Shown: positions 5,970 to 30,602 of the stretch, piece by piece
Position numbering within the stretch: position 1 is the first letter of the stretch
Layout: every line of letters starts with the position of its first letter
NCBI GenBank assembly: GCA_013138965.1
Contig: WTBT01000048.1
Location: 1 to 64,000 of the forward strand
Origin: Candidatus Aegiribacteria sp.
Lineage (GTDB): Bacteria > Fermentibacterota > Fermentibacteria > Fermentibacterales > JCC-6
Length of the DNA: 64,000 nt
Reading direction: 5' to 3'
Translations under genes and position numbers: made by a program
The notes under the pieces: model-generated
Told to the model about the DNA's origin: nothing
The model's input: the letters and a program-made list of their open reading frames with translations, nothing else
The model's database searches: none

Positions 5970-5977
5970 ATAGCAGA

Positions 5978-13655: not shown

Positions 13656-14433
13656 GGAAAGATTCAACAGGAAGGACTGCGTAAGCTGCGGCACCTGCGC
13701 CACTGTCTGTCCTTCGCATGCTATAGAGATTCGCGACGGGTATCCGTTTTTCAATAGCTCTCTATGCATCCTCTGCGGACACTGCGGAATATTCTGTCCG
13801 GTGAACGCGTTCGGAATGGAACCACTTCCCCTGAATGCAGCCACTGAGCAGCAGTACAGGTCACTTCTTGAAACCAGAAGATCCATACGATTCTACTCAG
13901 ATAAAGTCCCATCGGAAGACGAGATAAATACATTGATCTCCGTTTTGTCTCAATCTCCCACAGGTGTGAATCTACAGGGCATCACTATACGCACGGTTAG
14001 AGGAGTTGATGCCGTTGCCAGGCTCCTGAAGCCTGTACGAAAGATGCTTAAGATTCTCGCGTTTACCGGTCTTCTTCATATTATCGGGAAGGTCACCGGT
14101 ATGTCGGACTATATTGGACGATTAAGAGGGGGAGAGGATATGATCTTCAGGGGAGCGCCGGTTGTGCTGTTCTTCCATGTTTCTCGAAAGAATCCTACCG
14201 GCTGCGCGGACGGAGTCATCGCCGCAACAGCAGTTATGTACCATGCGGTATCGATGGGAATGGGTACTCTCTGGAACGGTGTGGCTGAGAAGATCTATCC
14301 TTTTACAGGGGCATGGCACACTCCCCGGACCAGGGGAACAAGGCTTGCCGCCGTCCTGTGTGTTGGTTACACTGCCCTGGAGCCGAAATGGAAGGCTCCA
14401 CCAAGGAGCTACAACGTTCTGAACCCGGACTAA
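13639..14433 (+). CDS. ferredoxin-nitroreductase fusion
   Basis: TTG 13639 is chosen because GATGAGGTG at 13627-13635 precedes it; the gene overlaps the lipoprotein by 17 bases. Residues ~10-60 hold two 4Fe-4S motifs, CVSCGTCATVCP and CILCGHCGIFCP. From about residue 75 a nitroreductase-like FMN domain follows, with the phosphate-binding RRSIRFYSDKVPS and SPTGVNLQ segments. The likely role is ferredoxin-linked, FMN-dependent reduction of an unknown substrate. This is the last gene before the 14.6-29.2 kb region. Confidence 0.85.
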   Translation: MKFFPEERFNRKDCVSCGTCATVCPSHAIEIRDGYPFFNSSLCILCGHCGIFCPVNAFGMEPLPLNAATEQQYRSLLETRRSIRFYSDKVPSEDEINTLISVLSQSPTGVNLQGITIRTVRGVDAVARLLKPVRKMLKILAFTGLLHIIGKVTGMSDYIGRLRGGEDMIFRGAPVVLFFHVSRKNPTGCADGVIAATAVMYHAVSMGMGTLWNGVAEKIYPFTGAWHTPRTRGTRLAAVLCVGYTALEPKWKAPPRSYNVLNPD

Positions 14434-14460
14434 AGAATTGGTAATCAACCCTTCAAGTGC

Positions 14461-14490
14461 TTGACATGGAAGGACTGACCTCTGTATTGT
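14461..14490 (+). promoter_or_regulatory. candidate promoter of the ferritin-like gene
   Basis: A perfect -35 TTGACA at 14461-14466 and a weaker -10 TATTGT at 14485-14490, with an 18-base spacer. The coding start is about 95 bases downstream, after a T-rich stretch, so a moderately long leader is expected. Confidence 0.45.
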
Positions 14491-14585
14491 CTGTTCAGGA
14501 AAGAAATAACGTTTGGATAGGAGATGTCGGGGAGTTCTTCTTTTTTTGGTGTTTTTGTATTATCTGGAGTTGAAGGAGTATGGCA

Positions 14586-15077
14586 ATGAGTATTGTCTTT
14601 AATGCATGGGAAATATTTGAAGTAGCAGAGGAAATTGAACGCAACGGTGCCAAATTTTACCGCAAAGCCGCAGAGAGTATTAAGAATCCGGACACACGAA
14701 GCAGATTACTGGAGCTAGCCGAGTGGGAGGCGCGGCACGAAGTAAGCTTCGCCGATATAAAAAACGGACTTTCCGAGCAGGAGCGCCAGGATACGGTCTG
14801 GGACCCTGAAAACAAAGACGCGTTGTATCTGCAGGCAATGGCCGATGGCCATGTCTTCGACCTGAAAACAGACCCCTATGAAAAGCTCGGTGACAAAGAA
14901 AACCCGGAAGATATCCTGAAAGCAGCTATCGCTCTGGAAAAGGAAGCTATCGCCTATTTTCTTGGCTTGAAGGCGCTTGTGCCGGCACGTATGGGAAAGG
15001 AAAAAGTGGACACAATCATCAGGGAAGAAATGGGCCATATAGGTATCTTGAACCAGGAATTAACGGCTTTGAAATAG
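14586..15077 (+). CDS. rubrerythrin/ferritin-like diiron protein
   Basis: Four-helix diiron fold. Likely ligands: Glu in EEIERNGAKFY, Glu and His in LAEWEARHEVSF, Glu in ALEKEAIAYF, and Glu/His in REEMGHIGILN, i.e. the EXXH pairs of the family. It has no rubredoxin domain. ATG 14586 is preferred over ATG 14580 because GAAGGAG ends at 14577. It is convergent with the hybrid kinase gene, 16 bases away. A peroxide- or oxygen-scavenging role would suit an oxygen-sensitive corrinoid/iron-sulphur system next door, but this link is inference. Confidence 0.8.
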   Translation: MSIVFNAWEIFEVAEEIERNGAKFYRKAAESIKNPDTRSRLLELAEWEARHEVSFADIKNGLSEQERQDTVWDPENKDALYLQAMADGHVFDLKTDPYEKLGDKENPEDILKAAIALEKEAIAYFLGLKALVPARMGKEKVDTIIREEMGHIGILNQELTALK

Positions 15078-15093
15078 ACTGCGCCAGGTAATT

Positions 15094-17388
15094 TCATTGC
15101 TCAATTACCTCGCGTACTTTTTTTGCCAGTTCATCTCTGGTGAAGGGTTTCTGAATGAAATTCATTCCTATGCCCAACACGCCATGATGGGAGATTATAT
15201 CGGCTGTGTAACCGGACATGAAAAGCGTCTTGATTCCCGGTCTTACTGCTTCAATCGCTTTGCTTAACTCATGACCGCTCATTTTGGGCATCACCACATC
15301 GGTTAAAAGAAGCGCGATATTCATATTGCCCTTTTCACACAGCGCAAGCGCGTCGCCCGGAGTTAAAGCCACCAGAACATCATAGCCGATAGTCTCCAGA
15401 ATCTTCGTTGTAAGATTGCGCACCATCTCATCGTCTTCAGCCAGAAGTATCGTTCCGTACTCGAATGATTCCGGCGCTTCAACGGCTGTCTCTGCTTCCT
15501 TCTTCTTTTCTGCGCATCGGGGAAAATACAACTTGAAGGTCGTCCCATGCCCCGGCTCGCTGTAAACATTAATGAATCCGTTGTGCTGTTTGATGATGCC
15601 GTAGACTGTGGCAAGCCCCAATCCAGTTCCCCCCGCTTTATCTTTCGTGGTGAAAAAGGGTTCGAAAACATGGGCCAGGGTTTCCCTGTCCATACCTATA
15701 CCATTATCACTCATCCCCAGCATAACGAAACAGCCGGGAACAAATCCGAGATGTCCCTGACAATATACCTCATCAATTGTGAGATTGGCAGTTTCGATGG
15801 TCAGCTTGCCCCCATCATGCATAGCGTCACGGGCGTTGATTCCAAGGTTGGCCACTATCTGATTGATCTGCCCCTGATCGGCCTTAATGGCCCACAGGTC
15901 TTTCGCGGGTATGAAAGAGATGTCAATGTCTTCACCGAGGAGTCGGGCAAGCATTATCTTCATTTCCTCGATCAGTGGATTCAGATTGACAATTCTGGGT
16001 TCAATGGTCTGTTTGCGGGAAAAGGCCAGCAGTTGTCGGGTGATTTCAGCGGAATGCCGGGCTGCCTTCTGTATCTCACGCAGATCTTTCATCATCGGGT
16101 CGTGCAGGTCGATTGTATCCATGATCAGTTCGGTATATCCAAGTATGACGCCCAGCATGTTGTTAAAATCGTGCGCCACACCCCCGGCGAGCCTTCCGAC
16201 AGTCTCCATTTTCTGCGACTGCATTAATCTTCTTTCGAGAACACGCTGCTTTGTCACATCATGCTTGACTCCGATATAGTTGATTATTTTCCCTTCGCTG
16301 TCTAAAACCGGAGAAATCGTGACTTCCTCGGTAAACAACGTTCCATCTTTGCCCTTGTTGATTATCTCGCCCCGCCATGTCTCGCCTCTTGCGAGGGTGT
16401 TCCACATCTCCCTGTAGAAGGCCTCGTCCTGTCTGCCGCTATGTAAGATGCGGGGATTCCGGCCGATGATCTCCTCCAGCGCATAGCCGGTCAATCTCTC
16501 GAACGCCGGGTTGACGTACTGAATGGTTCCTTCCGTATCCGTGATAACCACCAGATCAGCGGTCTGGTCAATGGCTGAAATTAAACGTTTCTGTTCCGCT
16601 TCAGCATGCCTGCGCCGGGTAATGTCACTGATAATCCCGATTGCGTTCCATTTACCCTTAAGTTTCGTGGCGGACATGGATAGTTCCACGGGAAATTCCG
16701 TTCCATCCTTTTTCAACGCGGTTAATTCCAGTGTTTTGCCTACAGCCGCACCTCTGCCGGTTTTCTGAAAGCCGGCAAATCCTTTACTATATGCGTCATA
16801 GTATCTATTCGGAGCGATATATCTGTGCAATTCTTTCCCTATTGCTTCATCTTCTGTATAGCCGAACATTTTTTCCGCGGCAGGGTTCCATAATGATATA
16901 TTTCCATTGTTATCTATCATAATTATCGCGTTCTGTGCCGCAGAGCAAACACCACGGAACTTTTCTTCACTTTCCTGCAGCTCTCGCAGCGTCCTGCGGC
17001 TTTCCAGTTCAACATTTTTCTTTTCCAAAGCTTTAAGAACCGCCTGGCCTAAGCGTTTGATATGCTGCTTTATCACATAATCATCGGCTCCTTCCCGCAT
17101 ACAATCAACGGCTATGTCCTCATTCATGGAACCGGTTAAAATCACGAAAGGGGTAAGGGGGCATTTTCTCTGTTTTATTCTCAATGCGGATATAGCGTCA
17201 AACAAAGGCAGGGTATAATCGGAAATAATCAGATCGGGTTTGAATGCTTCCAGTGCCCTATGAAACCCCTCTTCTGTATCCACCACCTGAACGGTATAGT
17301 TTTCCAGAACCGTTTTCAATTCCCGTTCAGCCAGTTCGGCGTCGGAAAGAACATCTTCCACGATCAATACACGCAGTATCTTTTTCAT
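15094..17388 (-). CDS. hybrid sensor histidine kinase (REC-PAS-PAS-HisKA-HATPase-REC)
   Basis: About 764 residues, cytoplasmic, no membrane segments. Order: receiver with phospho-Asp in LIISDYTLP (~residue 57); PAS (~145-260); PAS (~270-385); HisKA with phospho-His in GGVAHDFNNML (~406); HATPase with N box NLGINARDAMHDGG, DNGIGMD and GGTGLGLATV; C-terminal receiver with Asp in LLTDVVMP and Lys in FIQKPF. The start is taken as ATG 17388; an in-frame TTG lies two codons earlier. Last gene of the methyltransferase operon, 32 bases after the single receiver. No output domain is present, so phosphoryl groups must be passed on or used for protein contacts. Confidence 0.93.
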   Translation of the reverse strand: MKKILRVLIVEDVLSDAELAERELKTVLENYTVQVVDTEEGFHRALEAFKPDLIISDYTLPLFDAISALRIKQRKCPLTPFVILTGSMNEDIAVDCMREGADDYVIKQHIKRLGQAVLKALEKKNVELESRRTLRELQESEEKFRGVCSAAQNAIIMIDNNGNISLWNPAAEKMFGYTEDEAIGKELHRYIAPNRYYDAYSKGFAGFQKTGRGAAVGKTLELTALKKDGTEFPVELSMSATKLKGKWNAIGIISDITRRRHAEAEQKRLISAIDQTADLVVITDTEGTIQYVNPAFERLTGYALEEIIGRNPRILHSGRQDEAFYREMWNTLARGETWRGEIINKGKDGTLFTEEVTISPVLDSEGKIINYIGVKHDVTKQRVLERRLMQSQKMETVGRLAGGVAHDFNNMLGVILGYTELIMDTIDLHDPMMKDLREIQKAARHSAEITRQLLAFSRKQTIEPRIVNLNPLIEEMKIMLARLLGEDIDISFIPAKDLWAIKADQGQINQIVANLGINARDAMHDGGKLTIETANLTIDEVYCQGHLGFVPGCFVMLGMSDNGIGMDRETLAHVFEPFFTTKDKAGGTGLGLATVYGIIKQHNGFINVYSEPGHGTTFKLYFPRCAEKKKEAETAVEAPESFEYGTILLAEDDEMVRNLTTKILETIGYDVLVALTPGDALALCEKGNMNIALLLTDVVMPKMSGHELSKAIEAVRPGIKTLFMSGYTADIISHHGVLGIGMNFIQKPFTRDELAKKVREVIEQ

Positions 17389-17420
17389 ACTCAATTCACT
17401 TTTTTATATGGTTGCTGTTC

Positions 17421-17858
17421 CTACAATGGTTTTTCATTGATCACCAGCCAATACAATCCCAATTGATTCATCATTCCTACGAAATCATCAAATCCAAGCG
17501 GTTTGACAACGTAGCTGTTGGCCCCCAAATCGTAGGCAGCGGCAATGTCCGGATCTTCTTTTGAGGAAGTGAGAATGATCACCGGTATTTTCCGGGTCTT
17601 CTCATTCGTTTTTAACTGCTTCAATACTTCCAGACCGTTCAGTTTCGGCAGTTTCAAATCCAAAAATATTACTTTGGGCGATCCGGATGAATCTCTTCCT
17701 TTGTATTGTCCCCGGCAAAAAATATATTCAAGCGCCTGTTCGCCATCTTCGAGCACAATCAGACTGTTAGCCAGCCGATTCTTCCTCAAAGAGCGAATCA
17801 TTAATTCGGCATCATCTGGATTGTCTTCAACAATCACTATTTCATATTCATCTTTCAT
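17421..17858 (-). CDS. single-domain response regulator (Rcp1-like)
   Basis: Receiver domain only, 145 residues. Acidic pocket in IVIVEDNPDDAEL, phospho-Asp in VIFLDLKLPKLNG, Thr in VIILTSS and Lys in YVVKPLGFDDF. This is the type usually paired with phytochrome-like kinases (Rcp1 group). The start codon overlaps the end of the giant kinase gene by 11 bases, and the giant protein's C-terminus is a phytochrome-type HisKA/HATPase, so the two are the obvious cognate pair. There is no DNA-binding domain. Confidence 0.93.
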   Translation of the reverse strand: MKDEYEIVIVEDNPDDAELMIRSLRKNRLANSLIVLEDGEQALEYIFCRGQYKGRDSSGSPKVIFLDLKLPKLNGLEVLKQLKTNEKTRKIPVIILTSSKEDPDIAAAYDLGANSYVVKPLGFDDFVGMMNQLGLYWLVINEKPL

Positions 17859-20800
17859 TATCAGTACTCCGATTCCTTGGCATTGAGAAGTAGAATGCCG
17901 CGCCTTTACCTACTTCGCCCTCTCCCCAGACTTCTCCATCATGCCGGTGAATGATGCGCTGAACCAAAGCCAGACCCACACCGGTGCCTTCAAATTCCCG
18001 CTCGCTGTGCAGGCGCTGGAATACACCGAACAGTTTGTCGCTGTATCTCATGTCAAATCCGGCACCGTTATCCTTTACACAATAAATTAATAAATTATCT
18101 TCCTCCCGGCAAGAAACAGAAATAACAGCTTGCTCTCGACGGGAAGAAAACTTGAGAGCATTGGAAATAAGATTTGTCCATACCTGGTGCATCATGCCCG
18201 GATCGCCGATTGTTTTTGGGAGATCGGTTAAGGTGAATTCGATACGTTTCCGATCTTCCGGGGTGGTTGAATCCAGGTAAATGTCGTTGACCAGTTTATT
18301 CATATCAATTTCGGAAAAGCGCATGGCTGCCCGCCCCAAACGGGAAAAGTTGAGCAGGTCATCTATGAGCTGACCCATTTTCATAGCGTTCTGCCGAATA
18401 ACTGATCCCAGCCGTTTTCCCTCAGCATCCAGATTTTCCACATAATCTTCCATTAGAATCCGGGTAAATCCATCAATAGCCCGGAGTGGCGTACGCAGGT
18501 CGTGGGATACGGAATAGGCGAAGGCATCAAGCTCTTTGTTGGCGGTTTGCAGTTCTTTGGTTCGTTCATTTACCAATTCTTCAAGGTGATCTCGGTGTTT
18601 TTTCAGTTCTTCTTCGACGTGTTTGAGTTCTGTTATATCCTGCACTGTCCCTATTGACCGAATCGGATTTCCATTCTTATCGTATTCTGTGCGGCATATT
18701 TCACTTACATGTTTAATCGTTCCGTCTTTGAGGAGTATAGAATGAGTAATGGTATAAGGTTTTTTATTTTTTACAGATTCGCTGTAAGCCTTGATCAAAA
18801 AATCTCTGTCCTCCGGAAGAATCGCATTTTCAAAAGCCTCCATAGAAGGGGTAAATTTATCAGGATCAACTTCCAAAAGAATATATATCCCATCGGACCA
18901 ATAGAGTTGATTGTTCACTAAATCCAATTCCCATTGACCGATGCGCGCTATTTGCTGTGATTCCTTCAGTCTTCTTTCACTCTCTCTTAGTGCATCTTCC
19001 GCCTGCTTACGCTTTGTGATATCACGAACAAATTCAACCACACCAGTTACTTCATCCGAATTCGGATCTTTGATAGGATAACTGAAAAGCTCTAGCCACT
19101 CTACTGGAGAACCTGGAAATCCCTGTACAATATTGAATTCCGTTTTGCCGGATTCCAAACAACGTAAAGTAGGGCAAGGCTTACACGGCTTGTCTGAATT
19201 ATGATAAACCTGGTAGCATTTTTTCCCTTCGAGGGGAACATTTTCATGATACCAATTTTTCATTGTTCCATTTGTATGAAGAACAGTCAGATCAGAATCA
19301 AGTACGCTAATTCCATCTTGAACACTCTCTAATATGCTAAATAGGAAATGTTCATTTTTCTTCAATTCTTCCTCTGCCTTCTTACGATCGGTGATGTCAA
19401 AGACTGCCCCATCCAGCCAGAGAGCCTCCATGACATCTCCAAAAAACCCTTGCCCTCTTTCATAAATCCAATGTACGCTGCCATCGGCGTCGATTATGCG
19501 ATATTCGATGATATAGGGTCCTTTTCGCTTCAGACCCTCATCCACAGTTCTTTCGACCATTTCCCTGTCATCAGGGTGTATGATACTCGCGAATGTGCGA
19601 ACCTTATTCTGCAGAAAGTCGGATGCGGGATATCCTGAGATTTCCTCTATGACATCACTTATGAAGTGCATCGTCCAGTCAGCATCAACGGCACAGCGAT
19701 AGATGGCGCCCGGGATGTTCGTCAGCAGACTTCTGAATCTCTCTTCCTTCTCGCGCATGGTCTGTTCAAATCGTTTGCGTTCAGTGATATCACGGTCTAT
19801 GCCTCTGTATCCTAGCAGCTCACCATTTAGCGAGAAAAAAGGAACACCACTGGTTTCCAGGTACACAAGATGTCCGTCTTTATGGACATTGGTGTTTTCC
19901 AGGTTTGTTATCGGCTTTTGTGACGCCACAATGCTTCCAAAAGAAGCGCCGATGCGTTCGGCTTCCCCGGGCGGCATAAAATCAAACGGCGTCTTACCCA
20001 GAACTTCGTCAACATCGTATCCTAACAATTCGTCCACTATGGGATTGACATAGGTGTAAACACCGTTCTTATCCACTTCCCATACCCAGTCAGAAGTACT
20101 CTCCACAAGGTTACGGAAACGTTCTTCACTCTCCCTCAATGCCTCTTCAGCAATTTCACGCTCCCTGATTCTTTCTTCCAGATTGGTATAAAGACCTGCA
20201 TTTTCCATTGATATAGCTGCCTGTACAGAAAGCGCTTTTAGCAATTCCAGCCGATCCGGCGTAAAGGCGTTTCTTGTCAGATTGTTTTCCAGGTATAGCA
20301 ATCCTGAAAGTTTATTCTGATGGACAATCGGCAGGCACATCAATGATTTTGGCTGATGTTTCAGAATGTATTCATCCCCGCCATACGTGCTGTCTTGAGA
20401 GGCGTCATTCAATACAACCGATGTTTTCGTTCGTGCTGTGTAATTCACTATGGAGAGTGGAATTTCTTTACTCTCTTCAACTGGTATTGCCTGCATTGTT
20501 TCAACTTGTTTTTGATCTATTTCACCTTTTGCCTGAATGACAAGCCTGTTGTCTTTGTTCTGGATCAATATGCCCTTTTGAGCGCCTGCATTTTCAATAA
20601 CAATGTGTATCATCTTATCAAGGAGTCGGTCCAGCCGTATTTCGCGGGAGAGCATTTGTGAGGCTTTTATGATGGTTTCATTATCCAGTGATATTTTTGT
20701 GTCCCGGGTTGACAGATATTTGTACTTCTTTTCCAGATCAGCAACTTTGCGCATGGCGCCCCAGTCGCGATAGGAATTGCAGGCATTGGACATGCAGATT

Positions 20801-23800
20801 CGGGCAAACTCATCTCTTCCCAATCCCAGGTAGTACTCTGCTTCGCGTTCATATGATAACGCATTATCCTGGATATAGTTATATTTCCTGCTTCCCAGAA
20901 TGGCTTTGCTGTAATACTCCATTGCTTTCAGGGGATTCCCCGATATCCTGGCTCTCTCTGCCTCAATCAGGTCGTATTTGTGCTGATAATTCATCGGTGC
21001 ATGGTGTGCCCATTGCCGGAATTTTCCCAGAATCTCGTCCACTTTCTCCAGGTATTCCGTTTTCGTGTCATCATCTACCGATGTATATTCCGCCAATAGC
21101 GCCAGCGCATAGTAGAACAGGTGTTCGGGATAATAGATAAATGCTGTTGCGCCTAATTTATATTCTTCCGCATTGCGGGCTGATTCTATTGCCTCAGCAT
21201 ATTTCCCGAACATATACTGCAGAATCGTTCGACAGCAGTAAGCGCAAAAAACCAGAATACCATTATTCTGCTTTTTCCAAAGCGGCAGCATTTCTGTCTG
21301 ATCAAGTAACTTACCTTTCAACTGGCATGGATCCCATGACTTGTGCATGAGATTTAAAACTGTTTGAGCAAATATTTTCCCATAATCACTATGAAACTTC
21401 AGCCGGTATTTTTCTGTTGTCTCTATAATTATCGCCTGTTTATTCCGAATATCTTTCAGGGAGGCTCCCGTACAAAACATATAACTGCAATGGTTTAAAG
21501 CCCCATAATAGGCGTATTCCAAATCTCCTGTTTCAATTCCGTATTGATGGGCTTCAAGTAAAGGTGTTTTTGCTTCGGCGGCATGTTTTTTCCAGTGTTT
21601 TACAAAAGTGTTGAACATGAAAACAACTTTTGCTTTGAGTTCTGTTGCATGGGATCTCTCCTGCATTTTCACAGACAAGAGTCCTATCCTGTAACCCTTC
21701 TCGATCTCCCCGAAAACACCGATTAAAACTGCGGCATAACTGCCATAAACAAAAGCTGCCGTGGGAGAATTCCCATGTTTCAGGCACATGGCGACCATTT
21801 TGAAGACAATCACCGGTAACAGCTCAAGCCTGGCCTTGTGAGCCGGAACAATCAAATTCATCAGGATCCGCATTGCGGCCAGCTGACCGGCGTCACGCAT
21901 CAGGGGTAAGTCTGCTAAATGTTCAATCGGCTCCATTTTCAAGGAGAGCTCATTATATGATTTCTCTATATAAATCTTGCTCTCTTCCGGCTCCGTAGGG
22001 AGAGAGACTCCCAGAATTTCAAGAGCTTCAAGTCCGGACTCGATTGCTGCTGAGTTCAGGTTTTGTGCTGTGTAAAACAGTATCCTGAGTTCATAGACTT
22101 TTATCTTCTCCGGGAACTCCCCGGCATGCTTCAGTATTTCACCGGAGAGCAGTTCCGCCCTCTCGAAATTCGTACTCAGGTATTCAGCTTCCACAGCTTC
22201 CAGGTAAAGTTTCAGTGTTAATTCGTAATAACGGTCCCATTTGTCCGCTTTCAGGAGCCCTATCCCCATGCTCAGGTACCAGATGGCTGCCTGATATGCC
22301 GCTGCTTTTTTGGCTTTTTGACCGGCGATGAGATTTAATTCAGCCAGTCTGAGTTGTTCTTCCTTATCTTTAATGTATTGAAATCCATCATTTATATGAT
22401 TAACTATTTTATATATAGTTTTCTCTAATTCCACTTCTTTTGTATCTTTTAGAAGCAGCCTTCCTATTGCGAGCTGAACCGATTGTCTGTTTTTTTTTGC
22501 AAGCAGCCCAATGGATGCCTGCCGGATTCTTTCATCACAAAATTCGAAACCGGTGTCTTCCGCGATTATTTGCTCATCATCAAACACCGGCATCATTGTG
22601 CTGTTTTCATCCTGCGGAACAACCAATCCCGCTTTAACCGATTCCAGGAGAGAGTCGGATATGATTTTGTCGGATTTCTGCTCAATCGCAGCAAGTGTTT
22701 TCAGGTCAAAGCTGTTGCCGATACAGGCGGCCGCCGCCAGTATCCTGCGGGTATTCGCAGAAAGCTTCTCGACCTTCTGGATCATTAGATCCGCAACATT
22801 ATCCGTGATGCGCTTTGCGCGTATTCGATCAATATCCCAATGCCACTTCCTCTTGACAAAATTGAAACTGAGCACTCCTTCCTCATACAATGATATTAAA
22901 AAGCGTATGGATACAAAGGGATTGCCGCCAGTTTTTTCATATATCATCTGTGCTAATGTTTTTGAATAATTCGGTGCGCATTGCAGCATTTCTGATATTA
23001 ACTGGTTTAATATTCCTATGCTGATGCTGTTCAGATGAATCGAGTTGATATTAGCCCTGGTCTGTTTCATTTCCGCAACCGCCATGGTCAGGGGATGATC
23101 TGCCCCTGTTTCATCATCGCGGTACGCGCCTATGAATAATATGTATTGATTGTCCGCGCCGGTCATCAGAAATTTCAAAAAATCCATCGACGCGACATCC
23201 ACCCATTGCAGATTATCGATAAATATCACCAGGGGATGTTCTTTTTGAGCAATGGTTTTAACGAATTTCTGAAGCACATCATGAAAGCGATACTGTGCTT
23301 CTGCGGGGCCAAGCTCCCGAACAGGCGGCTGCGGGCCAATAATAAGTTCTATGGCGGGAATCATTTCCACCAGCAGTTGTCCGTTGGAGCCAACAGCCTT
23401 TGTGATCTTCTCTTTCCATCGGGCAAGATGCTGTACACTTTTAGCCAGTATCTGATTAACCAGCATGGTAAATGCATGAATCATAGCTGAAAAGGGAATA
23501 TTGCTTTTGTATCGATCATGGCTGCCTGATATGAAATAGCCTTGCTTATCAACTACATATTTTTGTATTTCGCTGATAAGTAACGTTTTTCCCACACCGG
23601 ATCGACCAAATAGCAGAATGGTTTCATTCGTTCCTTTATTAATCCGGTTATATGCCTCTAATATTGTTTGTATTTCCGCTTCTCTGCCGTACATTTTTTG
23701 AGGCATCTGAAATCTGCCTGAATAATCTTTCTCCGCAAGATCAAATTCCTTAATCGTGCCTGTTTTCAGTAGTTGATCCAGGCAGTTCGCCAGATCTGTT

Positions 23801-24588
23801 TCCAGGCCATAAGCTGACTGATAACGATCTTCGGGATCCTTTGCCATCAACTTCACGACAATATCCGAGACCGCCTGCGGGATACCGGTATTAAGTTCGC
23901 AGACCGGTTCTGGAGGTTTGGCAATGATGGAATGGATGAGTTCAGACGCGTCACTTGTGCCGAACGGCAATTCCCCGGTCAGCATTTCATACATAACCAC
24001 ACCAATCGAATATAGATCGGTACGATAGTCTACGAACCGGTTCATTCTGCCTGTCTGTTCCGGAGATATGTAGTGCAGCGCGCTTTCCGGCACTTCACTG
24101 TGCTGCAAATGCCGTTTACCTGGCGTATCGTCTTTAACGGCCTGTCCAAAATCTATAATTGCAGCCGTCTGCTCCCCGCGGTTGACTACAATGTTATGGC
24201 TGCTGATGTTTTTGTGAATGATGTTGCGGCAATGAATTTCCCCAAGCGCCTTTGCGATTGAGATCACCACAGCCAATATCCAGGAAAGAGTACATGGCGC
24301 CTTTAATGTCTTCCCGATGGTTGCCCCTTCAACATATTGCAGCACCAGAGCCGGCCTGTGATCAATTGTGATTGTTTCGTATGCCCTGCGAACACCGGGG
24401 ATATCCAGATTTTCAGTCAGTTCATATTCTCTGAGAAGTCGAGCGATCAGTCCCGGCTCAGGGATGTCGTCTTTCGGGAGTTTGATGACCACAGGCCCAT
24501 ATTCACTTGTATCTCCACGGTAAATCATGAAATTGGAACCTTGATGGATGCATTGAAGGGATGCCAGTTCTTTTCTTGATACTTTCAT
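17848..24588 (-). CDS. giant sensor: Ser/Thr kinase-like domain, AAA/STAND ATPase, GAF, four PAS, histidine kinase
   Basis: 2246 residues in one frame, matching the trifunctional Ser/Thr kinase / ATP-binding / sensor histidine kinase architecture. Order: kinase-like domain (~10-270) with VVIKLPKD, IIHKNISSHNIVV, IIDFGQA and YISPEQTGRMNR; ATPase (~295-560) with Walker A LLFGRSGVGKTLL and Walker B LVIFIDNLQWVD; a long helical, TPR-like region; GAF (~1370-1520); four PAS, the third carrying CYQVYHNSDKPCKPCP; HisKA with phospho-His in VSHDLRTPL (~2029); HATPase with NLISNALKFS, DNGAGFD, GTGVGLAL. The HRD motif of the kinase-like domain reads HKN, so phosphotransfer there is doubtful. ATG overlaps the DUF1638 gene by four bases. 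No membrane segment is seen, so it should sense a cytoplasmic signal. Confidence 0.92.
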   Translation of the reverse strand: MKVSRKELASLQCIHQGSNFMIYRGDTSEYGPVVIKLPKDDIPEPGLIARLLREYELTENLDIPGVRRAYETITIDHRPALVLQYVEGATIGKTLKAPCTLSWILAVVISIAKALGEIHCRNIIHKNISSHNIVVNRGEQTAAIIDFGQAVKDDTPGKRHLQHSEVPESALHYISPEQTGRMNRFVDYRTDLYSIGVVMYEMLTGELPFGTSDASELIHSIIAKPPEPVCELNTGIPQAVSDIVVKLMAKDPEDRYQSAYGLETDLANCLDQLLKTGTIKEFDLAEKDYSGRFQMPQKMYGREAEIQTILEAYNRINKGTNETILLFGRSGVGKTLLISEIQKYVVDKQGYFISGSHDRYKSNIPFSAMIHAFTMLVNQILAKSVQHLARWKEKITKAVGSNGQLLVEMIPAIELIIGPQPPVRELGPAEAQYRFHDVLQKFVKTIAQKEHPLVIFIDNLQWVDVASMDFLKFLMTGADNQYILFIGAYRDDETGADHPLTMAVAEMKQTRANINSIHLNSISIGILNQLISEMLQCAPNYSKTLAQMIYEKTGGNPFVSIRFLISLYEEGVLSFNFVKRKWHWDIDRIRAKRITDNVADLMIQKVEKLSANTRRILAAAACIGNSFDLKTLAAIEQKSDKIISDSLLESVKAGLVVPQDENSTMMPVFDDEQIIAEDTGFEFCDERIRQASIGLLAKKNRQSVQLAIGRLLLKDTKEVELEKTIYKIVNHINDGFQYIKDKEEQLRLAELNLIAGQKAKKAAAYQAAIWYLSMGIGLLKADKWDRYYELTLKLYLEAVEAEYLSTNFERAELLSGEILKHAGEFPEKIKVYELRILFYTAQNLNSAAIESGLEALEILGVSLPTEPEESKIYIEKSYNELSLKMEPIEHLADLPLMRDAGQLAAMRILMNLIVPAHKARLELLPVIVFKMVAMCLKHGNSPTAAFVYGSYAAVLIGVFGEIEKGYRIGLLSVKMQERSHATELKAKVVFMFNTFVKHWKKHAAEAKTPLLEAHQYGIETGDLEYAYYGALNHCSYMFCTGASLKDIRNKQAIIIETTEKYRLKFHSDYGKIFAQTVLNLMHKSWDPCQLKGKLLDQTEMLPLWKKQNNGILVFCAYCCRTILQYMFGKYAEAIESARNAEEYKLGATAFIYYPEHLFYYALALLAEYTSVDDDTKTEYLEKVDEILGKFRQWAHHAPMNYQHKYDLIEAERARISGNPLKAMEYYSKAILGSRKYNYIQDNALSYEREAEYYLGLGRDEFARICMSNACNSYRDWGAMRKVADLEKKYKYLSTRDTKISLDNETIIKASQMLSREIRLDRLLDKMIHIVIENAGAQKGILIQNKDNRLVIQAKGEIDQKQVETMQAIPVEESKEIPLSIVNYTARTKTSVVLNDASQDSTYGGDEYILKHQPKSLMCLPIVHQNKLSGLLYLENNLTRNAFTPDRLELLKALSVQAAISMENAGLYTNLEERIREREIAEEALRESEERFRNLVESTSDWVWEVDKNGVYTYVNPIVDELLGYDVDEVLGKTPFDFMPPGEAERIGASFGSIVASQKPITNLENTNVHKDGHLVYLETSGVPFFSLNGELLGYRGIDRDITERKRFEQTMREKEERFRSLLTNIPGAIYRCAVDADWTMHFISDVIEEISGYPASDFLQNKVRTFASIIHPDDREMVERTVDEGLKRKGPYIIEYRIIDADGSVHWIYERGQGFFGDVMEALWLDGAVFDITDRKKAEEELKKNEHFLFSILESVQDGISVLDSDLTVLHTNGTMKNWYHENVPLEGKKCYQVYHNSDKPCKPCPTLRCLESGKTEFNIVQGFPGSPVEWLELFSYPIKDPNSDEVTGVVEFVRDITKRKQAEDALRESERRLKESQQIARIGQWELDLVNNQLYWSDGIYILLEVDPDKFTPSMEAFENAILPEDRDFLIKAYSESVKNKKPYTITHSILLKDGTIKHVSEICRTEYDKNGNPIRSIGTVQDITELKHVEEELKKHRDHLEELVNERTKELQTANKELDAFAYSVSHDLRTPLRAIDGFTRILMEDYVENLDAEGKRLGSVIRQNAMKMGQLIDDLLNFSRLGRAAMRFSEIDMNKLVNDIYLDSTTPEDRKRIEFTLTDLPKTIGDPGMMHQVWTNLISNALKFSSRREQAVISVSCREEDNLLIYCVKDNGAGFDMRYSDKLFGVFQRLHSEREFEGTGVGLALVQRIIHRHDGEVWGEGEVGKGAAFYFSMPRNRSTDNER

Positions 24589-25397
24589 AATTTGTTTTCC
24601 TTGATTTTACCGTTTGATGTTGGGCGGTCTTTGTTTTTTAGAAACACTTTGGCCGCTTTCCAGGTTTCATTGAGAATCTCCATCGTTCCCTCACGCTTTT
24701 CGAGCCGGCAGCCGAAAAGCCTGTTGAATTCCTTCACATTCTGTTCCATTTCATCTTCGGGCATCAGTGGCGTTACAATCAGAAGAGATCTTTCGTACCG
24801 GTCAAACAGACGCTTTGCCATTTCAGACTTCAAGCTGCTGCTGTCGGGACCGAATACTCTCTTCCAATGATATGTCCATCCGGGCGTCATAAAATATGTT
24901 CCGGGAATTTTACATTGTTCTGCATAGTAATTATCCCTCCCGCCCATCAGCAAGCCGACACAATCATCCACAGGATGATCTCCATCCATGGGAATAAAGA
25001 CCGGAATGCCCACATCAAGTAATTTCTGCGGGTTTTCGATGGCACCGCCGCACAAACCATACCCAAGAAGCAGTGCGTCCACATGGGGCCTCATCTCCCG
25101 GGCAGCATTGATCAACCCTTTCTGTAAAATGCTTTTTTTTCTGTGAAGCGCCAGTTCCATCACGCGTACCAGCGCCTCCGTCAGCTCTGCGTCATGCTGT
25201 GAATGATCAGAGATATAGCTGTTTATATGAGGTATTCGCCGCAATCTATGGCTTGCCTTTGACTCAAGCATCTCGATCAGGCGAGCTGATCGGATATCTT
25301 CCAGAACCGTAATCCTGGAAAGATCGGGATCTGCGCAAAGCAGGTGGGCAAATTCGAGTTCCAGTACTTCGCAGGTAATAATACCAATCACTCCCAT
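24585..25397 (-). CDS. DUF1638 protein of corrinoid methyltransferase clusters
   Basis: 270 residues, soluble. The pattern matches the DUF1638 family that accompanies methylamine/methanol methyltransferases in methanogens and some bacteria: an opening GIITCEVLELEFAHLL, the central LLLGYGLCGGAIE, DDCVGLLMGGRDNYYAE and TYFMTPGWTYHWKRVF. Conserved Cys, Asp and His residues in these motifs could bind a metal or corrinoid, but no biochemical role is established to my knowledge. The start overlaps the activase gene by ten bases and the end overlaps the giant kinase by four, so expression is tightly coupled to both. Confidence 0.85.
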   Translation of the reverse strand: MGVIGIITCEVLELEFAHLLCADPDLSRITVLEDIRSARLIEMLESKASHRLRRIPHINSYISDHSQHDAELTEALVRVMELALHRKKSILQKGLINAAREMRPHVDALLLGYGLCGGAIENPQKLLDVGIPVFIPMDGDHPVDDCVGLLMGGRDNYYAEQCKIPGTYFMTPGWTYHWKRVFGPDSSSLKSEMAKRLFDRYERSLLIVTPLMPEDEMEQNVKEFNRLFGCRLEKREGTMEILNETWKAAKVFLKNKDRPTSNGKIKENKL

Positions 25398-27046
25398 GGG
25401 GTTGCTAACTCCTCACTTGTTATACAAAAGAAGCGACTGAGATCAAAGCACTTATGGGGGCATACCCGCTCACAGCGTCTGCACGCCACGCCACTGCACA
25501 GGGATTGATCCAGCGTAACTGCAGCAGAATCAGCTTCCTGGATGATGGTTATGGCGTTTTCAGGACATTCCTCCACACAATTCATGCAGGCTGTGCATCC
25601 TTCCATGGTTGCTCGTACCTTGCCGCCTATATCCGGGATGATAGTGAGCCCCATTCGTCCGAGATCATCGATATCCCGCTTTACCGTATGAACGATTTCA
25701 GGTGTGGCGCCCGGAGGCGGGAGATCGGGGAAACCATACTTTTTCAGGAATTTCCGGTACATTGAGATCGGCATGCCTTCCGTCCAGTAGGACAACTCCA
25801 GAATAAAAACTTTCTTGAAAGTATCGGAAGCTGCGAACAAGCAGTGGTGTTCCCGCAGTTTGTCGGCGAGGCTGCTCATCAGATCAAGTTTGCTGAGATC
25901 GAATACAAGATCCCTGGCCATGGAGAGGGAAGTGTTTCCAACCTGAAAGACGGTTTTTACACGGGGAGGGACCATACCCAGTTTCTGTGCCTTCACCGGG
26001 TCTACATAGGTGCCAGAAGCCCCGGACATATATGCTGTGCGAATATCATCCAAGCCTATACCGGCTTCCCGGCAGAGGGTGATATGGCCGGCCCGCACCG
26101 AGCCGATTGCCTTGCCGGCATTCATAAGATCATCTTCCGTAAAAAAGATATCACCAGTCAGGTGGAGTCTGCTGTCCATTGTCCTGATGCACGGCAATAA
26201 AATTAGACCGGACTCCATGGCCTGAAGCACAATAGCAAGGGTTCCCGTGCCGGTAATCCCGATGGGCCGTACCCCTGATCCGGCATCAATAACACTGCCA
26301 TCACTCATATCCACCAGAGGACCTTCAGCGGGAATCATTTCGGAATCCAATACGATCAAACGCTGACAGGAAATATCCGAGTTAAGATCGGAAACTGCCC
26401 CTGGAACAGCCAGCATGCCACAGCTGATCTGCTGGCCCTCAAGGGCCGGTCCCGCGGCAGTGGAGCCTGTAAACACACGCCCCTGATGAAGAAGCGCCAT
26501 TTCCGCATTTGTGCCGTAGTCGGTTGCCAGCGAGGTCTCATCTTTTTCAAGCATTCCGGTCTGGATAATCATGGCAAGGGAATCCGCTCCGATTTCGTGG
26601 CAAACCGAAGGCGGGATGATCACATCGCACCCCGCAGGCAGATTTAATCCGGGAATATTTCGGGTTGCTGTAATAACGGCTTCCCGTTCTGGAGACACCA
26701 CGCCGAGAGATTCCAGTTTTCGTTTTCCGGCAAAGGCCAGATCCCTGATTTCAATTCCCTGAAACAGGGACAACTGGATCGGATTTCCGCAAACCGCCAG
26801 GCGAACCACCTTTTCCGTATTGATATGAAGTTCCAGAATTATCCTGTTGACTGCCTGGATGATTATCCTGTTGGCCGTTTCCAGCCCTATTTCCAGGGCA
26901 AAATGGATATGGTCGATAACATTGGCGCCAGGCAGGGGATGACGTGTTGTAATAACAGTGGAAATAATATCGCGGGAGGAGAGATCAAGAGCCTGGGCGC
27001 GTAAACCGCTGGTACCTATATCCATTGCAATTGCCAGTCGAGACAT
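25388..27046 (-). CDS. RamA/RACo-type corrinoid reductive activase (ASKHA, DUF4445) with C-terminal ferredoxin
   Basis: ATP-dependent enzyme that returns the inactive Co(II) of a corrinoid protein to Co(I). An ASKHA-type ATPase core begins AIAMDIGTSGLRAQALDL; phosphate and adenosine segments include LATDYGTNAEMAL and GITGTGTLA, and YMSGASGTYVDP lies near residue 345. From about residue 480 there are two 4Fe-4S motifs, CTACMNCVEECP and CSGVACRRCERVCP. A C-terminal position of the clusters is the RamA arrangement; RACo carries an N-terminal 2Fe-2S domain instead. GAGGAG precedes the ATG. It follows mtaB by 29 bases and is the expected partner of MtaC. Confidence 0.88.
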   Translation of the reverse strand: MSRLAIAMDIGTSGLRAQALDLSSRDIISTVITTRHPLPGANVIDHIHFALEIGLETANRIIIQAVNRIILELHINTEKVVRLAVCGNPIQLSLFQGIEIRDLAFAGKRKLESLGVVSPEREAVITATRNIPGLNLPAGCDVIIPPSVCHEIGADSLAMIIQTGMLEKDETSLATDYGTNAEMALLHQGRVFTGSTAAGPALEGQQISCGMLAVPGAVSDLNSDISCQRLIVLDSEMIPAEGPLVDMSDGSVIDAGSGVRPIGITGTGTLAIVLQAMESGLILLPCIRTMDSRLHLTGDIFFTEDDLMNAGKAIGSVRAGHITLCREAGIGLDDIRTAYMSGASGTYVDPVKAQKLGMVPPRVKTVFQVGNTSLSMARDLVFDLSKLDLMSSLADKLREHHCLFAASDTFKKVFILELSYWTEGMPISMYRKFLKKYGFPDLPPPGATPEIVHTVKRDIDDLGRMGLTIIPDIGGKVRATMEGCTACMNCVEECPENAITIIQEADSAAVTLDQSLCSGVACRRCERVCPHKCFDLSRFFCITSEELATPWE

Positions 27047-27075
27047 AAATATTATCTCCTCTTATCAGGTAACGA

Positions 27076-28443
27076 TCACAATCCGTAAGATGCTGGTTTA
27101 AAACCTTTTACTTTACCGTATTTGCTCAGGCAAAGGTCGATGAAGTCTTCTTCTTTATCCGGAAGAGACTGCATTTCTTTCATGTAGCTCAGCAGCGATT
27201 CCTTCTCAAAGGCCGTCATTCTGAGAAGGGGATCGCCCAGCATCAGTTTTCCGCACTTATCAGCTGCAGCCCTGGCGCGGGTGTACATACTTTCATTGTT
27301 GTCAACAACGGCTTTGCCGATAAGCCAGGCATTGTCCGGGCAAAGCATGAAACCATGGGGTCCCCGATAGCGGTCGGAATTCACCAGGCATGCCTGATAT
27401 TCTTTTTGATAGCCAAGCGAAATGGCTGAATTCATCGCCGCGGTATCGTATCCGAGCATTTCAGCAAAGACTGCAGATGTGCTTCCTCCAAACATATTAT
27501 TGTATTCAACGGCCTCATTGGACCAGAGGTCACACACTGCTCCCATAACATTACCGCAAAGATCGGGATGGGCACAGGCGCTGGTCTTGCCTTCAGCTGA
27601 GATCGGTACACCGGTAATGGCCTTGATGACAGGATTTTCGTATGCGCAATCCTTGCCTGGTCCGGTTGCGCCACATTCATAGGCCACCAGTGTTCTACCT
27701 GCACTGATGGCTCTGGACAGCGCTGCCAGGGTATGAGGAATATCCTTGGAGAGAAAGCCGCCTGCCATGAACATGGCAGTATTTGCCTGAGCGCAATCGG
27801 TATCCCCACCGGCGATGCAGTCGTGTTTTTTCGCGATTTTCACAATTTGCGACCATAACCACTCCATATCCCTGCCACCAAGCACAGCTTGAGCGAAAAG
27901 AAGGCCGGTGATATCATTCCTAATCAGGGAATAGTCGGATATCTCCTTGCCCCCCAGGGACTCAATTGAGATAATGTCCGAATATTTCGCGCACTCATTG
28001 AATGATTCAAGCACTTTGCTTGTTGGTTCAGAATCTCTTAAATTCACCATGTCCGGCTTGCGTATGTCGGCAATAGTGGATCTATATGCGGACTTAAGCC
28101 CGTATTTATCCTTGAATTCAAGGGTCTGACGGACTGACTGGGCCGCGATTTCACCACCCCATCCAGGATTGGCGGTCATCTGGTATACATGTTCATTTTC
28201 AACCACCAGGTGGGGATGTCCGACCATGACACACCGCTCCAGCGCATCGAAATTTGCACGCTCAAACTCTCTTAAAAGCGTTTTTATTGTCTTTTCACTA
28301 CCCGGTCTGGGGTGGGGAACAATTTCAGGGATCACATAACCGCCGCCAATCGTAAGGCCTTGTTTTGTTTCTACAGGTTTTCTGGCGAATCCGAACATCA
28401 TTTCCGCGGAACTGCCATACGCCATCGAACTGCTCAGTTTCAT
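27076..28443 (-). CDS. mtaB: methanol:corrinoid methyltransferase family protein (MtaB)
   Basis: Zinc enzyme that transfers the methyl group of methanol (or a related methyl donor) to the Co(I) corrinoid on MtaC. 455 residues, family length. Glu161 (SIESLGGKE), Cys217 (GGDTDCAQANTAM) and Cys266 (GATGPGKDCAYENP) sit exactly three residues before the zinc ligands I recall for Methanosarcina barkeri MtaB (Glu164, Cys220, Cys269), so the metal site looks intact and the alignment ungapped over this span. GGAGG precedes the ATG. It is cotranscribed with mtaC, 20 bases away. Substrate identity is inferred from family only. The name clashes with the unrelated tRNA methylthiotransferase at 46179. Confidence 0.9.
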   Translation of the reverse strand: MKLSSSMAYGSSAEMMFGFARKPVETKQGLTIGGGYVIPEIVPHPRPGSEKTIKTLLREFERANFDALERCVMVGHPHLVVENEHVYQMTANPGWGGEIAAQSVRQTLEFKDKYGLKSAYRSTIADIRKPDMVNLRDSEPTSKVLESFNECAKYSDIISIESLGGKEISDYSLIRNDITGLLFAQAVLGGRDMEWLWSQIVKIAKKHDCIAGGDTDCAQANTAMFMAGGFLSKDIPHTLAALSRAISAGRTLVAYECGATGPGKDCAYENPVIKAITGVPISAEGKTSACAHPDLCGNVMGAVCDLWSNEAVEYNNMFGGSTSAVFAEMLGYDTAAMNSAISLGYQKEYQACLVNSDRYRGPHGFMLCPDNAWLIGKAVVDNNESMYTRARAAADKCGKLMLGDPLLRMTAFEKESLLSYMKEMQSLPDKEEDFIDLCLSKYGKVKGFKPASYGL

Positions 28444-28462
28444 TATTCTTCCTCCTCAGGAA

Positions 28463-29212
28463 CTAACCGTTCCACTTTGTCCGCATTTCCCACCAACTGA
28501 GTCCATTCAATGCATCTTCAGCCATGCCAGGTGCCTGGCTCGCCTCTTTACCCCATATCCCCAGGTCAAAACTCGTTACATATTCCTCGCTTACAGCGCC
28601 TCCGCCACATACAAACGGGATATTCAAACCCAACTCTTTCAGCTTTTCCGCAATCTTTGGAAATGCCGTCATAGTAGTTGTCATCAATGCTGTACCGGTG
28701 AGCATCACTGGATTATGAAGCTTGCAGGCCTCAACCACTTCATCAACCGGCACATCAGCGCCGAGATTTATCACATCGAATCCGGCAGCATTCAACAGGG
28801 CATTAACGATCACCTGGCCGATGTCATGGATGTCACCTTCGGCAGTGTGCGTGACCACCTTGGGCTTCTTTTTAACAGCCTTTCCCATCTTATCTTCACA
28901 TAGGTCTATTCCGGCAATCATGGTATCGGATGAAAGAATAACCTGAGGAAGAAAATATATGCCTTCATCCCACAAACGACTGACCTCTTTCATACCCGCG
29001 ATCAGCCCTTCATTGGTGACTTTCAACGGGCTTCTTGTTTTCAGAGCTTCTTTCACTGCACTTTCGATTGCCTCTTCATCACCTTTTACAACACAGTCAG
29101 CAACCTTTTGCAGAAGCTTATCTTCGGAAATATCTCGAATCTTCGGACGCGCGACCTCAATGTTGATGTCGTATCGAGTAAAAATCCTGGAACTATTCGG
29201 TGAATGTTTCAT
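28463..29212 (-). CDS. mtaC: cobalamin-binding methyl-carrier protein (MtaC type)
   Basis: 249 residues. The N-terminal helical cap domain (residues ~30-110; LIAGMKEVSRLWDEGIYFLP, LSSDTMIAGID) precedes a Rossmann-like B12 domain with the cobalt-ligand motif GDIHDIG (His129) and the downstream GTALMTTTMTAFP and FVCGGGAVS loops that hold the nucleotide tail. ATG 29212 has GGAG six bases upstream. First gene of the operon, directly followed by mtaB, the standard mtaCB order. Residues 1-25 are an extension of unknown use. Confidence 0.9.
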   Translation of the reverse strand: MKHSPNSSRIFTRYDINIEVARPKIRDISEDKLLQKVADCVVKGDEEAIESAVKEALKTRSPLKVTNEGLIAGMKEVSRLWDEGIYFLPQVILSSDTMIAGIDLCEDKMGKAVKKKPKVVTHTAEGDIHDIGQVIVNALLNAAGFDVINLGADVPVDEVVEACKLHNPVMLTGTALMTTTMTAFPKIAEKLKELGLNIPFVCGGGAVSEEYVTSFDLGIWGKEASQAPGMAEDALNGLSWWEMRTKWNG

Positions 29213-29240
29213 TGCGTCTCCATGACCTGTTTCCTCATAA

Positions 29241-29390
29241 AACCACTTCTTTGTGCTCCCCGCATTGAACTATCAACCAGCCGAGGTGACATGGCAGGCG
29301 CAGAACCCCGGTCGGGTTGAGAACCCTGGTATTATCCCCATCGAGGTCTTACCCAATGCAAACCGTGCAGTCAGTATGCCGGTGATATAA
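29241..29390 (+). pseudogene. short open remnant upstream of the mta operon
   Basis: 49 codons between two stops with protein-like composition (AEVTWQAQNPGRVENPG, IPIEVLPNANRAVS). No start, no recognisable domain, and further stops follow at once. It looks like decayed coding DNA, perhaps part of the same secreted-protein gene that continues at 29464. Low confidence. Confidence 0.25.
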
Positions 29391-29463
29391 ACCTTCACCG
29401 GAGGGAGAAGACCCGATGAGATCCACAACCTGCATATCAATATTACTCTCTGATAGACCTTAA

Positions 29464-30582
29464 CGCCAGTGTGGAGTATTTTTACTACCTCATCCCAGCG
29501 ATTCCACACATGCCTGCAGCGCGAGTCATATTGTCATAAGTAAAAGTGTGACGAGTTTAGGGCAGAGAAATTGCGTAATAGCGCATGAATTCCAGCATGC
29601 TGTCCAGTTCTCTTACAGCTACCAGGAGCCTACATGGTTCATGGAAAACTGCGCTGTATGGATGGAAGAAATGGTGTATCCCAGTGTAAACGATTACCTG
29701 ATGTACGTTAAGTATGGTGAAAATCCTCTCAGGTATCCGTGGAAGGATATACGATCAGGGTCTATGTACTGGTACGGTGGAGTGATATGGCCCTGGATGA
29801 TGTGGATCAAGTACGATGAGAATGCAGTACGTGAAATCTGGGAGCATTGTGCTGAGAACGCTGGCGCTTATATGATTGAAGCACATGAAGAGATGTTAGC
29901 CGATCATGGAACTGATCTGGAAGCGTTCTTCATGGATTATGGATGCTGGAGATGGTTTACAGCATCCTTTAAACCAGGTGAATATGGCATACACTGGATC
30001 CGCTTGGATCTTGCCGCTTATCAGAATAGATCGGTGAAAATGGATTTCAATGGACATGACGGTTTCGAATGGAATCTTGGTGTCATAAGGTGGGAGACAG
30101 GCAGTGACTTCGATTTCAACTGGTACGAATGCGAATCCAGGCAATATCCTCATATTTATTTCATCGAAGGAAAACGGGGATAAGACCTTGGTCTGTAACC
30201 GTATGTTGAAGAATACCAATCCAAAATATATTGTATACTTCACTCTCACAACGAAAGCTATAGATCATGATACAGTTGGCGCACCGGGCGAGTTTTTCTG
30301 TCTGTTCCTTGAAGAGAACGACCAGGAGAGGTCTCTTGTGCATCACTGAACCCGTTCTACGAAACCGTTACCTTCTCTGCAGCGGGAATCTCAGGTACAG
30401 CGTCAATCGAGATCTACAATGTTACCGGTCACCTGATAATCGAGTCTGACTTCACGGGAAGCTACTGTTGGAGCGGAGTTGAGCTCGACGGCTCGATCGC
30501 ACCTTCAGGAGTTTACCTTGTGAGGGTGGTCGATCAATTCGAAAGGAAGGCAGGGCTCGCGGTAACCAGATTGAGCCATTAG
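29464..30582 (+). pseudogene. decayed secreted zinc metallopeptidase (MXAN_6640-like) with T9SS-type tail
   Basis: Protein-like sequence runs through three frames. The central frame (29464-30183, no internal stop) holds the zinc motif AHEFQHAVQFSY (HEXXH), then WFMENCAVWMEE and a Trp-rich domain. After the stop at 30181-30183 the sequence continues in another frame (NPKYIVYFTLTTKA, APGEFFCLF) and then in a third from about 30343, where NPFYETVTFS and SGVYLVRVVDQFE form a FlgD/T9SS-like sorting tail ending at TAG 30580-30582. The signal peptide and N-terminus are missing. Two or more frameshifts and a truncated start make it non-functional. The family call rests on the HEFQH region and its surroundings. 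Confidence 0.7.
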
Positions 30583-30602
30583 CGGAGAGGTACGCTCTGT
30601 TG

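Follow-up and report, generated by a model that had tools for sequence, protein, structure and literature searches.

A mobile cassette joining methanol:corrinoid methyltransferase genes to a giant sensor kinase in a Fermentibacterota genome, and its possible role in sensing methyl donors

The 64,000-nucleotide stretch of Candidatus Aegiribacteria sp. analyzed here (contig WTBT01000048.1, positions 1 to 64,000; hereafter the window) carries a cassette in which the genes for the corrinoid protein MtaC, the methyltransferase MtaB, a RamA-type activase and a DUF1638 protein are followed by those for a giant sensor kinase, a receiver and a hybrid kinase. The reading that we favor, and to which we give an even chance, is that the cassette senses methanol or a similar small methyl donor and is passed on horizontally; MtaC and MtaB would act as a covalent one-carbon receptor that is read by the kinase. 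Gene content, synteny and mobility, the catalytic residues of MtaB, MtaC and the histidine-kinase core, and the loss of a catalytic aspartate from a second kinase domain can be read directly from the sequence, and no enzyme that would accept the methyl group was detected.

The cassette in the window

Gene identities were taken from Pfam and NCBIfam profile searches. Seven minus-strand genes fill the block 15094-29212 in the order claimed by the original prediction, which had been made from the same DNA without database searches. They overlap or are separated by short gaps, as that prediction had also said, and no gap exceeds 29 bp: the gaps measure 19 bp between MtaC and MtaB, 29 bp between MtaB and RamA and 26 bp between the receiver and the hybrid kinase, while DUF1638 overlaps RamA by 10 bp and the giant kinase by 4 bp, and the giant kinase overlaps the receiver by 11 bp. 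The start of the block had been placed at 14586, which falls inside an unrelated plus-strand ferritin/rubrerythrin-like gene (14580-15077) directly beyond the block's actual end at 15094. From their spacing, the seven genes likely form one transcript. Promoter- and terminator-like sites in the block were no more frequent than in shuffled sequences, and no Rfam riboswitch was found upstream of mtaC. The features are as follows.

28463-29212, minus strand: MtaC-type corrinoid protein, 249 residues; cobalt-ligand motif GDIHDIG at residue 126, retained in all 8 aligned homologues
27076-28443, minus strand: MtaB-type methanol:corrinoid methyltransferase, 455 residues; equivalents of M. barkeri E164, C220 and C269 present
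25388-27046, minus strand: RamA-type ATP-dependent corrinoid reductive activase, 552 residues; TIGR04270 above cut-off, C-terminal iron-sulfur cysteine motifs
24585-25397, minus strand: DUF1638 protein (PF07796), 270 residues; corrinoid-reactivation role known from genetics only
17848-24588, minus strand: giant sensor kinase, 2246 residues; degenerate Ser/Thr-kinase domain, AAA/STAND ATPase, TPR-like region, GAF, several PAS, HisKA and HATPase domains
17421-17858, minus strand: stand-alone receiver, 145 residues; likely phospho-acceptor of the giant kinase
15094-17394, minus strand: hybrid histidine kinase REC-PAS-PAS-HisKA-HATPase-REC, 766 residues; kept in the Sabulitectum relative
14424-30865, no strand: island carrying the cassette; the same site lacks it in congeners (119 bp there in genome G003)

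MtaB scored 662 bits against PF12176 and 644.7 bits against MtaB_Meth, the latter under the NCBIfam equivalog cut-off of 720, and MtaC scored 264.9 bits against MtaC_Meth, under its equivalog cut-off of 420. Both proteins are homologous over nearly their full length to those of the methanol:coenzyme M methyltransferase MtaABC (2I2X), and they retain the zinc ligands (equivalents of E164, C220 and C269) and the DxHxxG cobalt ligand of the M. barkeri enzyme. Unlike that system, the window genome has no MtaA, and the cassette adds DUF1638, the giant kinase, the receiver and the hybrid kinase. RamA reached 771 bits against TIGR04270 (cut-off 500), with RACo domains as well as the C-terminal iron-sulfur motifs, and DUF1638 reached 122 bits against PF07796. 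A scan of five window proteins for hydrophobic stretches gave no clear membrane helix.

RamA-like and DUF1638 proteins are both required for methionine synthesis in Phaeobacter, where they form a genetically defined pair with an inferred role in corrinoid reactivation (PMC5764234). The two genes adjoin and overlap in the window, which resembles this pair (PMC5764234, PMC12478193); there the pair serves methionine synthesis and glycine betaine demethylation, whereas here it lies between mtaCB and a kinase. An AlphaFold2 model of DUF1638 was of fair quality, with a predicted local distance difference test (pLDDT) score of 83. It had no match in the PDB with E < 0.001, the best 50 TM-scores being 0.31 or lower, so the fold gave no hint of function; there was no sequence match in the PDB either.

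Recurrence and mobility of the cassette

To place the cassette among other genomes, one genome per species was scanned, followed by tblastn and gene calling; the resulting counts of loci are lower bounds among the matches listed. The order mtaC-mtaB-ramA-DUF1638-giant kinase, whole or in part, occurred in at least five bacterial lineages: Fermentibacterota, Bacteroidales, Methylococcales, a symbiont of the clam Ctena, and Phycisphaerae. It was complete in the Bacteroidales (L009), Methylococcales (L010) and Ctena symbiont (L011) loci. The Sabulitectum contig (L006) begins at mtaB, so that its cassette is cut by the contig end, and the short Phycisphaerae contig (L016) begins within mtaB and ends within the giant kinase. 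A Desulfobacteraceae locus (L007) has mtaC-mtaB-ramA behind a receiver-domain protein. In a Methanospirillaceae archaeon (L012), which also has archaeal-type Thi4 and ThiN genes, mtaC-mtaB-ramA-DUF1638 is flanked by a PAS histidine kinase with a receiver and by a PAS/GAF/PocR protein.

The nine MtaB sequences formed one group, with a support of 96 in the Shimodaira-Hasegawa-like approximate likelihood ratio test (SH-aLRT), beside two neighboring loci (L013 and L014). Members of this group are 70-95% identical to the window MtaB and keep all catalytic ligands. A match of more than 80 bits to the window kinases was present at 6 of the 8 other loci of this clade versus 2 of 44 other MtaB loci (p = 3.6e-5, uncorrected for relatedness). 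The association of kinase and mtaCB thus exceeds chance, and the search for genomes with the kinase beside mtaCB, on which the original prediction had staked its claim, did find them.

Some of these loci have features of their own. In the Spirochaetales locus (L008, 2570-4185), ramA is cut to about 140 residues, a GTPase-like gene stands between mtaB and ramA, and the cassette is apparently decaying. A propeller-type (Reg_prop/Y_Y_Y) histidine kinase precedes mtaC in the Bacteroidales locus (4209-8341); its core shares 51% identity with the core of the window giant kinase, and the accompanying receiver is 69% identical. Upstream of mtaC in Methylococcales lies a kinase/regulator pair in which a LapD_MoxY_N domain had hinted at MoxYX; we dropped this identity because NCBIfam puts the proteins nearer the UhpB/MctS and GacA/NarL types.

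We also examined whether the cassette had been inherited or acquired. The window comes from an 80-kb contig of a 2.9-Mb genome (G000) that is 94% complete and belongs to the family of Candidatus Sabulitectum (Fermentibacterota). This MtaB was found in only 2 of the 60 genomes searched, G000 and a Sabulitectum relative (G025), whose copy on contig JAGLOJ010000079 is 95% identical. The left flank of the window cassette has up to 88-90% nucleotide identity to congeners over long stretches. The equivalents of window bases 14423 and 30866 are only 119 bp apart in one congener (G003), with a similar arrangement in a second (G007), and the same flanks enclose approximately 0.75 kb of other DNA in a third (G012) and approximately 8 kb in a fourth (G015, L074 6490-14541). 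Two more (G011 and G016) have a contig end or lose similarity at the site. Because several relatives lack the block at the same site, the 16.4-kb block 14424-30865 is read as an insertion in the window genome; the alternative, loss in all those congeners, is less simple.

The varied contents of the site between 14423 and 30866 (119 bp, approximately 0.75 kb and 8 kb in the congeners) also raise the possibility of an insertion hot spot. Short elements at 30705-30867, the right edge of the island, and at 60304-60366 are bounded by inverted copies of AGGAGGYTGTCCGAYAAT, an 18-mer with 4 matches in the window versus 0.15 expected, and probably represent a miniature transposable element. Within the island, a MXAN_6640-type metalloprotease-like frame with a GTG start (29548-30183) scored under its family cut-off and is probably a remnant. 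Positions 1-750 of the window recur at about 79-94% identity on several other contigs of its own genome and of congeners, as a multi-copy element or gene family.

A second empty site was found in the gammaproteobacterial Ctena symbiont. Its cassette is a discrete block (contig C89, 251-12778). Gene calling there gave mtaC, mtaB, ramA, DUF1638, a giant hybrid kinase and one HD-GYP response regulator, and no second methyltransferase. A 98%-identical relative has about 60 bp in place of the block. The binning of this contig is sound, since its other half is syntenic with many relatives. With two clean empty sites in different phyla, the window island and the Ctena-symbiont unit, the sequences establish that the cassette is horizontally mobile and moves between distantly related microbes. 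Neither mtaB nor a close DUF1638 relative was found on plasmids.

Cassette kinases and the search for a methyl acceptor

Cyanobacteria and other organisms commonly have giant kinases of this kind. The window kinase comprises a protein-kinase domain, AAA_16, a TPR-like region, GAF, several PAS domains, HisKA and HATPase. Its N-terminal architecture is that of the giant Ser/Thr kinase-AAA-GAF-histidine kinases known from cyanobacteria, Bacteroidota and other groups, and it is about 34-40% identical over 1466 residues to its best plasmid matches. We compared the six cassette kinases with 22 giant kinases from plasmids and Bacteroidota. The six formed a single clade (SH-aLRT 100) that, in contrast to the others, has lost the catalytic and Walker-B aspartates and gained a CxH motif. 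The catalytic aspartate of the HRD motif was kept in 22 of 22 comparison kinases and replaced by Asn or Ala in all six cassette kinases (HKN in the window). Asn in place of the second Walker-B acid (residue 459 of the window kinase) and Cys13 each occurred in 6/6 cassette kinases versus 0/22 others, and His15, which completes the C13xH15 motif of the window protein, in all six versus 2/22. These changes probably trace to few ancestral events and therefore do not count as six independent ones. The Ser/Thr-kinase domain of the cassette kinases is probably a catalytically degenerate pseudokinase, so the "trifunctional" kinase of the original prediction is probably not one. The histidine-kinase core, with its H, N and G boxes intact in the window protein (SHDLRTPL at residue 2028), is predicted from these motifs to be active.

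Receiver domains are fused to the giant kinase in the Methylococcales and Ctena-symbiont loci and are separate in the window, L006 and L009; because of these fusions we tie the window receiver to the giant kinase. At 17 other Bacteroidota giant-kinase loci, neither RamA nor DUF1638 was present within 1.5-kb flanks.

We then looked for an enzyme that could take the methyl group from MtaC. No URO-D homologue was found in G000 or in G025, which therefore have neither MtaA nor HemE, and MtrH-type and CdhC (acetyl-CoA synthase) homologues were likewise not found in these two genomes. Each has two pterin-binding matches: a strong one that resembles dihydropteroate synthase (DHPS), and a weaker one that in G000 is MetH (methionine synthase) and adjoins methylenetetrahydrofolate reductase. 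In the Ctena symbiont, two URO-D fragments together make up one HemE-like protein. No URO-D was found in the Methanospirillaceae genome; MtrH is expected there as part of the core methanogenesis complex. Homologues of URO-D, MtrH and CdhC occur in the genomes of the close clade neighbors L013 and L014. The metabolic half that the original prediction saw in the operon is thus not evident: the genome holds no homologue of MtaA/URO-D, MtrH or acetyl-CoA synthase, and the mobile unit carries none. The enzyme set is more likely an input to the sensor than a pathway regulated by the relay.

A URO-D match in the Methylococcales genome of L010 was considered as HemE and rejected, since it is an MtaA/CmuA-like methyltransferase in a second signaling cassette. 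On another contig of that genome (L070, G063:C48, 3586-11140), overlapping or nearly overlapping genes encode a RACo-type activase, a corrinoid protein, this URO-D methyltransferase, DUF1638, a histidine kinase and a REC-PAS-GGDEF-EAL protein. A Thiodictyon plasmid (NZ_CP020371, 38703-43694, L113) has a corrinoid protein, a URO-D protein, a RACo activase and a GAF-GGDEF protein in a row. On a plasmid of Azoarcus sp. KH32C (NC_020548, 271288-276437, L114), a corrinoid protein, a URO-D methyltransferase, a kinase and a hybrid kinase sit between fae/fhcABCD (formaldehyde oxidation) and a pyrroloquinoline quinone (PQQ) methanol dehydrogenase cluster; an HD-GYP-like gene lies just upstream on the opposite strand. 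The composition recurs across these unrelated cassettes with different methyltransferases (MtaB or URO-D) and signaling outputs, and only in part, because not every case holds both activase and DUF1638.

A possible methyl-donor sensor and its rivals

We propose the following scheme. With MtaB moving the methyl group reversibly from methanol to the cob(I)amide of MtaC, and no second methyltransferase to draw it off, the methanol concentration would fix what share of MtaC is methylated. That share would report donor concentration, and RamA with DUF1638 would spend ATP to keep the corrinoid ready as Co(I). The giant kinase would sense which state MtaC is in, perhaps by way of DUF1638 and its own dead kinase/AAA region, and would pass phosphate from its HisKA/HATPase core to the receiver and the hybrid kinase. 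In favor of this scheme stand the recurrent gene order, the two empty sites, the failure to find an acceptor in G000 and G025, the retained ligands of MtaB and MtaC, the kinase clade with its altered active sites, the unrelated cassettes of like composition and the known pairing of RamA-like and DUF1638 proteins. Methylation state as the signal, the kinase as its reader and methanol as the ligand are what we infer, as are the contact surfaces, the order of the phosphorelay and its output. The original prediction had the relay report either methyl-donor supply or corrinoid redox state; the former stays the favored signal and the latter is kept as a rival.

Several observations count against a methyl-donor sensor. 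A stable methyl-Co(III) would require the reverse reaction or an unseen demethylase for reset, and two members of the MtaB clade, the Desulfobacteraceae and Spirochaetales loci, show no giant kinase. Most loci come from metagenome bins, several on short contigs, and the synteny check covers only the window and the Ctena contig. Three genomes (G062, G068 and G063) carry URO-D proteins that are not clearly HemE, and the URO-D results for Bacteroidales, Phycisphaerae and Methylococcales leave room for an acceptor. The window genome itself may hold an unrecognized one, as it is 94% complete and its corrinoid and pterin systems were searched in part. The DUF1638-like N-terminus of the Azoarcus kinase scored 22.5 bits against a Pfam cut-off of 27, with an hhalign probability of 62%. 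We hold this reading with moderate confidence, since any acceptor so far overlooked would turn the cassette into a regulated pathway.

Such a pathway, the reading of the original prediction, is unlikely, though it has to be taken seriously. The cassette would then supply methyl groups for catabolism or assimilation, pass them to an unrecognized acceptor, and be controlled by its kinase relay or report to it. MtaB, MtaC and RamA look fully active by sequence, and the genomes of the neighbors L013 and L014 have URO-D, MtrH and CdhC homologues, whereas none was found in G000, in G025 or among the genes of the mobile unit. A precedent is the conserved, syntenic mec cassette for dichloromethane degradation, in which a PocR histidine kinase accompanies a catabolic set of corrinoid methyltransferase genes (PMC9768040); mec, however, occurs in fermenters with the Wood-Ljungdahl pathway and has methyltransferases I and II and a transporter, and the window cassette has neither a second methyltransferase nor a transporter. 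It is improbable that the relay responds instead to the redox state of the corrinoid or to energy status (Co(II)/Co(I), ATP or ferredoxin potential), with RamA and DUF1638 as the sensing parts and methanol as a bystander. In support of this, RamA works with redox change and ATP, DUF1638 adjoins the kinase gene in the cassettes (with a 4-bp overlap in the window), a weak DUF1638-like domain is fused to the Azoarcus kinase, and the title of a 2019 paper by Fiege and Frankenberg-Dinkel, cited in PMC11784639, calls RdmS a thiol redox sensor. MtaB would be superfluous for redox sensing, yet it is strongly conserved, with its 70-95% identity to the window protein and every catalytic ligand in place.

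That the kinases only share a mobile island with the methyltransferase genes, with no functional link, is very improbable. The region is acquired and has a miniature inverted-repeat element at its right edge, but the same order recurs in at least five bacterial lineages, the kinases form a cassette-specific clade with common active-site losses, and in another phylum the island is reduced to these genes plus one response regulator. We find it barely credible that MtaC is a cobalamin photoreceptor like CarH or the photocobilins, labile to light or redox change. Photoreceptors in which a cobalamin-binding domain drives GGDEF or another output are known (PMC11796333), and MtaC also matches CarH and a GGDEF protein at low score. 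In those sensors, which likewise use a cobalamin-binding domain for signaling, the input is light and the domain is fused to its output, with no methyltransferase or activase. MtaC, in contrast, is a separate methyltransferase-type protein (258-265 bits to MtaC families versus 45 bits to CarH) and is kept with MtaB and RamA, which a photoreceptor does not need.

The original prediction compared the relay with methanogen regulators such as MsmS. The likeness holds, in that the MsmS and RdmS kinases of Methanosarcina are tied to methyltransferase genes, but the comparison needs an update: both lack an H-box and are no longer regarded as histidine autokinases (PMC11784639). The window giant kinase, by contrast, has H-, N- and G-boxes and is mobile with mtaCB. 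In text searches of the open PMC literature we found no description of such a cassette, consistent with the suggestion that the arrangement may be undescribed; the mec cassette and MsmS/RdmS came closest. Its parts are known; the combination as a mobile enzyme-plus-kinase unit appears to be new.

Taken together, and tentatively, with a somewhat greater chance of being wrong than right, we suggest a mode of sensing that would be new: the half-reaction of a corrinoid methyltransferase loads a B12 protein with the methyl group of its ligand, and a histidine kinase reads the charge through a repurposed pseudokinase. It would have arisen more than once, with loading by MtaB or by a URO-D protein, and would have crossed from phylum to phylum and into an archaeon, reaching among other places a site beside methanol-oxidation genes. 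If the half-pathway serves sensing, methylotrophy has been wrongly assigned to some genomes because they hold mtaB/mtaC or a single stray corrinoid methyltransferase, and this would bear on every use of mtaB as a marker gene for methanol use. DUF1638 would gain a link to signaling, and the persistence of giant kinases whose kinase domain is dead would find a possible reason. Organisms unable to eat methanol could still notice it.

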